In this document: in pieces, positions 15,117 through 16,747 of the stretch
Position numbering within the stretch: the first letter of the stretch is position 1
Layout of the letters: every line of letters starts with the position of its first letter
NCBI GenBank assembly: GCA_019114625.1
Contig: DXFD01000041.1
Location: 1-39,304, forward strand
DNA length: 39,304 nucleotides
Reading direction: 5' to 3'
DNA from: Candidatus Borkfalkia faecigallinarum
Lineage (GTDB): Bacteria > Bacillota > Clostridia > Christensenellales > Borkfalkiaceae
Notes under the pieces: model-generated
The model's database searches: none
The model's input: the letters and a program-made list of their open reading frames with translations, nothing else
What the model was told of the DNA's origin: nothing
Position numbers and translations under genes: made by a program

Positions 15117-15175
15117 AGAAAATTTTTACGATATTTGACTGTTAATTTTGTGCTCAATTTTACGCTTCATGAGTA

Positions 15176-15222
15176 CGCCGCCGGACGCGCGCCGATTTCA
15201 TGTGTCCGACGGCGACTTTTTT
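15176..15222 (+). terminator. Probable intrinsic terminator after protease module
   Basis: Imperfect stem CGCCGGAC ... GTCCGACGGCG followed by ACTTTTTT. Confidence 0.55.
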
Positions 15223-15482
15223 GGTTGCGTAAAAAACCGTCAAGCACACAAGCCGCACGGCGCCGATGTTGCAGAAAAAACCATCGTTACAGCGATCTTG
15301 CGGCAGAATCATATATGATCTTGCGCGTGGCGGTTTTGTGACCGATCATACGAGTGCTCGCGGTCAAAAGATAAAAATGTGAGCAAGATTAACGTCAAAA
15401 CATACAAAAAATCGGTAAGCGGCGGGCAAAAATTGAAGCAATCGGCGGAAGCAACTGCCCTATAAGCCTTTTTGCTGCCATC

Positions 15483-15519
15483 TTCGCGTAAAAGTCGTGT
15501 TTTACGCATAGATATGCGT
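15483..15519. repeat. Overlapping palindromes, dif-like architecture
   Basis: GCGTAAAA-gtcgtg-TTTTACGC (15486-15507), arms extendable to 11 bp with two mismatches; overlapped by ACGCATA-ga-TATGCGT (15504-15519). Confidence 0.7.
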
Positions 15520-15572
15520 GTCTTGTTTTCTCCTCTACCGCGTCTTTCTCTTTTGAAAAACAGCTGAAAAGG

Positions 15573-15644: not shown

Positions 15645-15673
15645 TTGCTTTTTTTGCGCCCTTGCGCTATAAT
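15645..15673 (+). promoter_or_regulatory. Sigma-A-type promoter of recombinase gene
   Basis: TTGCTT (15645-15650), 17-nt spacer, TATAAT (15668-15673); 6 nt between -10 and ATG. Confidence 0.75.
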
Positions 15674-15679
15674 ATTTGT

Positions 15680-16747
15680 ATGGCCGAACAGTCCTTTTAT
15701 CAAAAGCGAAACATCAAAAATCTGGAGCGCATCGAGGCCCTGAAGGAAGAATTGCCGCCGTTTGTCGACGAGTATTTTTTGGGGATCGAGAACCAGACCA
15801 GCACCTTGACGCGCCTCAATTACGCCTACGATCTGCGCATCTTTTTCGATTTTTTATCCAAAAAATGCCTGCGCGGGAAGGCTGTGCGCGCCATCACGCT
15901 GAGCGACCTCGAGGCGGTTTCCAGCCACGATATCGAGCGGTTTTTGAGTTATTTGACCCACTATGAGTTCCGTGGCTCCCAAGAAAGCTGCAACGAGCGC
16001 GCCAAAGCGCGGAAATTATCGACGGTGCGGGCGCTTTTCAAGTACTTTTTCCGCAAAGATAAGATCAGCGTCGACAACGCCGCCAAAGTTTCCATGCCCA
16101 AACTGCACGAAAAAGAGATCATCCGCCTGGAAGCGAACGAAGTCGCCGACCTTTTGAACTGCGCCGATTCGGGCAGCGGCATGACCAACCACCAGCGCGC
16201 CTTCCATGAAAAGACGCGCATCCGTGACGTCGCCATCCTCACGTTGTTTTTGGGGACCGGCATCCGTATCAGCGAGCTTGTCGGCCTGAATAACGAGGAC
16301 ATCGACTTTACGACCAATAGCTTCAAGGTGACGCGAAAAGGCGGCAATCAGGCGATCCTCTACTTTTCCGACGAGGTCGCCGACGCGTTGGCGCGATACC
16401 TCGCCTATAAAGAAGAAGATAAAAACACGCCCGAACAGGAACATGCCCTCTTTTTATCCATCAAAATGCGGCGCATCAGCGTTCGTGCCGTGGAAGACCT
16501 CGTCAAAAAATACAGCCGCATCGTCTCTCCGTTAAAAAAGATATCCCCCCACAAATTGCGCAGCACCTACGGCACGCAGCTGTATCGCGAAACGAAGGAT
16601 ATCTATGTCGTTGCGGACGTCCTCGGGCATAAAGACGTCAACACGACGCGCAAACATTATGCCGCCATCAGCGAGGATATCCGCCGCAACGTCGCCGACA
16701 AAGTCAGGCTGCGCGAACCGAAAAAGAAGGACGATCCGAACGGCTGA
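15680..16747 (+). CDS. Xer-type tyrosine recombinase/integrase
   Basis: Catalytic signature: GTGIRISELVGL (R), VTRKGG (K), SPHKLRSTYGTQL (HxxR), LGHKDVNTTRKHYA (H and Y). Start set to ATG 15680 rather than the TTG of the ORF track. Confidence 0.93.
   Translation: MAEQSFYQKRNIKNLERIEALKEELPPFVDEYFLGIENQTSTLTRLNYAYDLRIFFDFLSKKCLRGKAVRAITLSDLEAVSSHDIERFLSYLTHYEFRGSQESCNERAKARKLSTVRALFKYFFRKDKISVDNAAKVSMPKLHEKEIIRLEANEVADLLNCADSGSGMTNHQRAFHEKTRIRDVAILTLFLGTGIRISELVGLNNEDIDFTTNSFKVTRKGGNQAILYFSDEVADALARYLAYKEEDKNTPEQEHALFLSIKMRRISVRAVEDLVKKYSRIVSPLKKISPHKLRSTYGTQLYRETKDIYVVADVLGHKDVNTTRKHYAAISEDIRRNVADKVRLREPKKKDDPNG

Follow-up and report, generated by a model that had tools for sequence, protein, structure and literature searches.

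In the 39,304-nt stretch of Candidatus Borkfalkia faecigallinarum DNA analysed here (the window), a palindrome lies upstream of a gene for an Xer-type tyrosine recombinase, and the locus raises the question of what function keeps it there. The earlier note on this DNA had suggested that the palindrome could serve the neighbouring recombinase as its cognate site, either for recombination or for autoregulation. Our analysis supports the recombination half of that proposal and does not support the autoregulatory half. The 34-bp palindrome is very probably the chromosomal dif site, and the adjacent 355-aa recombinase the single enzyme acting on it. This reading is favored because the site is single-copy, lies at the terminus and co-occurs with the recombinase, because the catalytic set of the enzyme and an FtsK-gamma domain are present, and because no canonical dif was found.

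The palindrome had been described as an 11-6-11 element at 15483-15510. The window sequence there is exactly as written, but an 11-bp arm is too short, since the arms extend to 14 bp. The full symmetric element is ATCTTCGCGTAAAA-GTCGTG-TTTTACGCATAGAT (34 bp, 15480-15513), with 12 of 14 arm positions symmetric and the 6-bp centre read from that symmetry. It is the sole 14-6-14 palindrome with at least 12/14 arm symmetry in the window, against an expectation of 0-2 per block-shuffled window (mean about 0.25), and its local occurrence is only mildly unlikely by chance. Because this chance rate is not low, local statistics give no proof and the case rests on conservation. The genome search for a unique match that had been suggested returned one match at up to 3 mismatches; this genome is a draft, 88.6% complete, and both the uniqueness of the site and the absence of XerC/XerD lean partly on relatives. 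A second, terminator-like hairpin is possible at 15503-15520, formed by the right arm and the following TATGCGTG, a flank that is not conserved in most relatives.

Table 1 Features of the recombinase locus in the window.
Feature	Position	Strand	Basis
Isolated GCGTAAAA octamer, possible half-site relic or chance	15158..15165	-	Octamer count in window, genus flank count
Isolated GCGTAAAA octamer, possible half-site relic or chance	15227..15234	+	Octamer count in window, genus flank count
Putative dif-like site of 34 bp, two 14-bp arms flanking an asymmetric 6-bp spacer	15480..15513	+	Uniqueness, conservation (genus, order, class), GC-skew terminus
Left arm ATCTTCGCGTAAAA	15480..15493	+	More degenerate arm in window, L006, L007, L026
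Central hexamer GTCGTG, asymmetric, gives site direction	15494..15499	+	Compared across genus and other families
Right arm TTTTACGCATAGAT	15500..15513	+	Better conserved arm
Predicted promoter: TTGCTT 15645-15650, 17-nt spacer, TATAAT 15668-15673, 6 nt to ATG	15645..15673	+	Orthologue comparison
Single tyrosine recombinase of the Xer type (355 aa), closest to XerS	15680..16747	+	Pfam PF00589/PF02899, NCBIfam, 21-orthologue alignment

The four octamers that had been noted as a cluster all sit where they were placed, and they are four of the six in the window (1.4 +/- 1.1 expected). The +/-300 bp flanks of 21 genus sites hold five extra octamers against 0.98 expected, with a maximum of 4 in 50 shuffles. 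Extra GCGTAAAA half-site-like octamers occur upstream in L006 and L012. Such additional copies close to the site may be remnants of earlier sites. The coordinates of the cluster were right, but with at most a small excess in the genus flanks it is secondary, and the octamers at 15158 and 15227 support the argument weakly and in a minor role.

Conservation of the palindrome upstream of orthologues, a check proposed earlier, was found throughout the genus. The recombinase is present in 25 of 37 genus genomes, the other 24 sharing 76-93% identity, and a site match occurs in 24 of these 25, nearly always as a single copy. G009 has an additional poor match with 3 mismatches, and the 25th genome (G029) carries a perfect 14-6-14 variant, AACACTGCGCAAAA-CCCTTC-TTTTGCGCAGTGTT, upstream of its recombinase gene. 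No site match was found in the 12 genus genomes without the recombinase, nor any Xer-type protein with the XerD model at E <= 1e-20. Recombinase, XerD-model match (E <= 1e-20) and site are all absent together in G002, G003, G004, G006, G007 and G011, and also in G023, G025, G026, G027, G034 and G035. In these 12 of 37 drafts, some of them more than 90% complete, either the terminus is under-assembled or the system has been lost.

Around the site core, conservation in the genus alignment drops to background past about -20 and +25; the core columns were selected by the search pattern and the flanks were not. The two arms covary (ATGCGT/ACGCAT, CTGCGT/ACGCAG, TTCGCA/TGCGAA), and a paired change is seen as CACTGCGTAAAA...TTTTACGCAGTG. 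The centre hexamer is GYYGTG in the genus and of the CTTGTC, CTTGTA or GCTGTG type elsewhere. The right arm is better conserved than the left across the genus, and its equivalent TTTTGCGCATAG is the constant arm in families f36, f73 and f81; by analogy, this constancy would fit a preferred arm as in XerH.

The pairing extends well beyond the genus. Of 21 other families in the order, 18 carry a palindrome of this 14-6-14 class ahead of the orthologous gene, and the spacer is 6 bp in every case. The order-wide site pattern CTMTKCGYAAAAN6TTTTRCGMAKAG, with two mismatches allowed, matched 235 of 297 order genomes, mostly once, and the reversed-pattern control matched 1 genome. A site was found in 233 of 266 order genomes with the recombinase versus 2 of 31 without it (Fisher p = 1e-20), a joint table tallied by hand from two listings in which, site and gene being neighbours in most genomes, joint absence in drafts is partly a shared assembly gap. 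The other 33 of the 266 recombinase-bearing genomes have no site at this stringency. Outside the order, the recombinase (E <= 1e-60) occurs in 46 of 372 class genomes, from 14 families, and by hand counts from tables 25 of 27 site-bearing genomes carry it, in 8 of the 14 recombinase families; at the pattern stringency used, 21 of the 46 recombinase genomes have no site.

Several observations were made alongside these surveys. Family f19 includes genomes with two site-pattern matches each instead of one (G105, G142, G184, G196, G231, G273, G284 and G305). The 361-kb plasmid pCY360 of Butyrivibrio proteoclasticus (NC_014389.1) encodes a relative of the recombinase, 38% identical, and a near-perfect palindrome, AAAGTAGTTCGCTAAAT-GTTGT-ATTTAGCGAACTACTTT (L285:880-918), lies upstream of its probable start; gene and palindrome are possibly a plasmid version of the same site/recombinase module. 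The 2.63-Mb record NZ_CP154629.1 of Acetoanaerobium noterae, filed as plasmid pTPELB2, is chromosome-sized with only 4 annotated features and is probably a mislabelled chromosome.

Analysis of GC skew, also suggested by the earlier note, placed the site at the terminus in complete chromosomes. In G067, G090 and G372 (three chromosomes from two orders, each read in twenty evenly spaced 20-kb samples) the + to - skew turn falls in the sampled interval containing the site, and the opposite turn lies about half a chromosome away. Both the skew and the gene-strand bias turn sharply at the site on a 400-kb contig of G044; the skew of G032 agrees with a site at the turn, that of G001 is weak, and the window itself has little GC skew and is weak in this respect. 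A scan of five genomes for terminus-biased octamers (KOPS/SRS candidates) found general purine-rich skew only, and the B. subtilis SRS GAGAAGGG is rare in them, so no translocation signal is claimed.

Genomes with the site far from the gene reveal which of the two goes with the terminus. The site of G038 lies at 64.3 kb and the gene at 118 kb; the cumulative skew peaks at 48-64 kb, and the skew at the gene is that of one replichore. Site and gene are on different contigs in G021, G028, G338, G429, G349 and G582; in G582 and G021 the turn is on the site contig, and the gene contig has no comparable + to - turn. The terminus position is marked by the site, not by the gene. G015 was rejected as a further unlinked case, its assembly breaking inside the palindrome.

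These parted genomes bear directly on the alternative that the palindrome is an operator for the recombinase gene, bound by the recombinase or another regulator and kept by linkage instead of recombination. In favor of an operator, the site precedes the start codon by 167 bp in the window and usually by 40-800 bp elsewhere, and a recombinase bound there could also influence transcription. However, the site is kept at 54 kb from the gene in G038 and on other contigs in the six genomes above, and skew turns at the site where the gene is far away count against a role as operator or leader. How the site is oriented with respect to the gene also varies, with reversal in L016 and L020, and the site stands well upstream of the predicted promoter. 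We therefore consider an operator very unlikely. With the site retained far from the gene in several genomes, autoregulation is not needed, and that part of the earlier proposal is set aside.

The promoter was read by comparison, the sigma-70 scan having missed it because the hexamer criteria were unmet. In nearly every genus orthologue (L005-L028) a TATAAT box precedes the ATG, at 6-9 nt by one count and 12-15 nt by another, and a TTGNTT-type box stands 17 nt upstream of it. No Shine-Dalgarno was found before the recombinase gene in nearly all genus orthologues; in several other families one is present. Judging from these elements, the recombinase mRNA is probably leaderless and starts downstream of the site, and a promoter so placed would leave the palindrome outside the transcribed region. 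This leaves little room for the idea that the inverted repeat works as RNA, either as the terminator of the upstream gene or as a hairpin in the recombinase mRNA leader. The arms could pair, and a terminator-like hairpin was called at 15503-15520, but the predicted transcript starts about 165 bp downstream of the palindrome, no Rfam match was found and no T-run follows the palindrome. Moreover, the spacer is conserved and found in both directions, and the site survives apart from the gene. A function in RNA is thus extremely improbable.

The dif reading also draws on the enzyme. The recombinase is a two-domain protein (PF02899 and PF00589, Pfam), and its gene follows that of a trypsin-like/HtrA-type protease and precedes hflX. 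R196, K220, H291, R294, H317 and Y327, the six catalytic residues as assigned by motif, are invariant in 21 orthologues (46 to 93% identity), and the catalytic set appears intact. Its best NCBIfam model is XerS, and each of the 21 orthologues tested also matches this model. With 206 bits, the window protein stays under the cut-off of 267, whereas annotated XerS proteins from Bacilli plasmids score 397-470 bits; on the XerC and XerD models it reaches 165 and 151 bits, far below the cut-offs of 335 and 330. A maximum-likelihood tree with four XerS sequences, all plasmid-borne, unites the orthologues (97/97 to 99/98) next to the XerS proteins (100/97-98), with a split of provisional depth, and separates them from XerC/XerD-like proteins. 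An FtsK gamma domain is encoded in the same genome (G000:C24:7960-8136, 75 bits) and in 39 of 41 genomes tested.

A second Xer-type protein was not found in the genus genomes with the XerD model (E <= 1e-20; drafts 66-96% complete), and an XerD-like protein is also encoded in some other families. The canonical Firmicutes dif has a TATTATGTWAA-type consensus, which, in the form used here, matched none of 61 genomes at three mismatches. Two findings had been named beforehand as speaking against the proposal, namely a palindrome not conserved with the gene and a canonical dif with xerC/xerD elsewhere; both were looked for and neither was found. The claim of a recombination site accordingly holds on its single copy, terminus position, co-occurrence with the enzyme, linkage in most families, and the lack of a canonical dif or an XerC/XerD pair in the genus. 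That the site is instead the attachment site of a mobile element, with the recombinase as the integrase of that element, is scarcely credible: mobile-element tyrosine recombinases are relatives, and integrative elements use dif sites in other bacteria (PMC5357621, PMC9765430), but this site is single-copy, vertically spread over an order and at the terminus, the gene adjoins hflX, the clade is that of a two-domain Xer-type enzyme, the site has no flanking second copy, the 121-bp site region has no phage match, and no site pair around an element with its own genes was seen in the genus.

Among known systems, XerS/difSL of streptococci and lactococci is likewise built on one recombinase of about 356 aa, with its gene beside the site and the site at the terminus (PMC5357621). 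The single recombinase is shared at the level of the genus genomes (E <= 1e-20 with the XerD model). The two enzymes share about 34% identity and belong to separate clades, with 206 bits here against the XerS cut-off of 267. By the published description, difSL measures 31 bp, its arms TTTCCGAAAA / TTTTCTTGAAA enclosing a centre of 11 bp (PMC5357621), whereas the site here has 34 bp, symmetric 14-mer arms and a 6-bp centre by symmetry, and unlike difSL it is unlinked from the gene in several genomes. No similar palindrome was found close by the plasmid XerS genes. On model score, clade and site sequence the pair falls outside XerS/difSL, though it would operate in a similar way.

XerH/difH of Helicobacter and Campylobacter, which is FtsK-dependent, also combines a single recombinase of similar size with a 6-bp centre, inner arm bases AAAA...TTTT and arm asymmetry (PMC2731167, PMC5241119). 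Its consensus TGAAAAC---A-TTTTCAAA (PMC2731167) differs from the TKCGYAAAA arms here, as judged from that published consensus. XerL/dif of Legionellales resembles the present system, by description, in its single recombinase, its long uninterrupted inverted-repeat arms and in spanning an entire order while escaping homology-based detection with known dif sites, but it belongs to different bacteria and xerL lies more than 400 kb from dif (PMC9765430). The XerC/XerD (CodV/RipX) system with the canonical Firmicutes dif likewise has a site at the terminus, close to the shift in GC skew, in the form of an imperfect palindrome of 28-34 bp around a 6-bp centre (PMC3025954), but uses two recombinases where one is found here. 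Single-recombinase dif/Xer systems are a known kind, described in the published surveys that we found solely from streptococci and lactococci, epsilon-proteobacteria, Legionellales and archaea (PMC2731167, PMC3025954, PMC5357621, PMC9765430). We found no published description of this recombinase clade or dif class in Clostridia, with subscription papers and preprints outside the search, and both are apparently undescribed.

We infer that recombination and dimer resolution take place at the site, and likewise that the recombinase binds and cleaves it at defined positions in dependence on FtsK. Each site would be occupied by two recombinase monomers, on its two 14-bp arms. Once sister chromosomes have been joined as a dimer through an odd crossover, their two dif copies would meet at the septum, where FtsK may activate the recombinase tetramer at the synapsed sites. 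Strand exchange across the asymmetric 6-bp centre, in two rounds, would then return the dimer to two monomers before cell division. Two-monomer binding, synapsis and an FtsK trigger for ordered strand exchange are proposed by analogy with XerS/difSL and XerH/difH (PMC5357621, PMC5241119).

Resolving chromosome dimers belongs to the basic upkeep of the cell, and the pair of site and enzyme recurs over a large, mostly uncultured part of Clostridia. If the dif reading is true, a single enzyme with a recognisable 34-bp site serves an entire order of gut Clostridia as well as many surrounding families. The unlinked cases indicate that the terminus position is held by the site itself and not by the gene. 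The site consensus offers a ready terminus marker for draft genomes of uncultured bacteria, and the natural arm and enzyme variants from dozens of families make specificity mapping possible.
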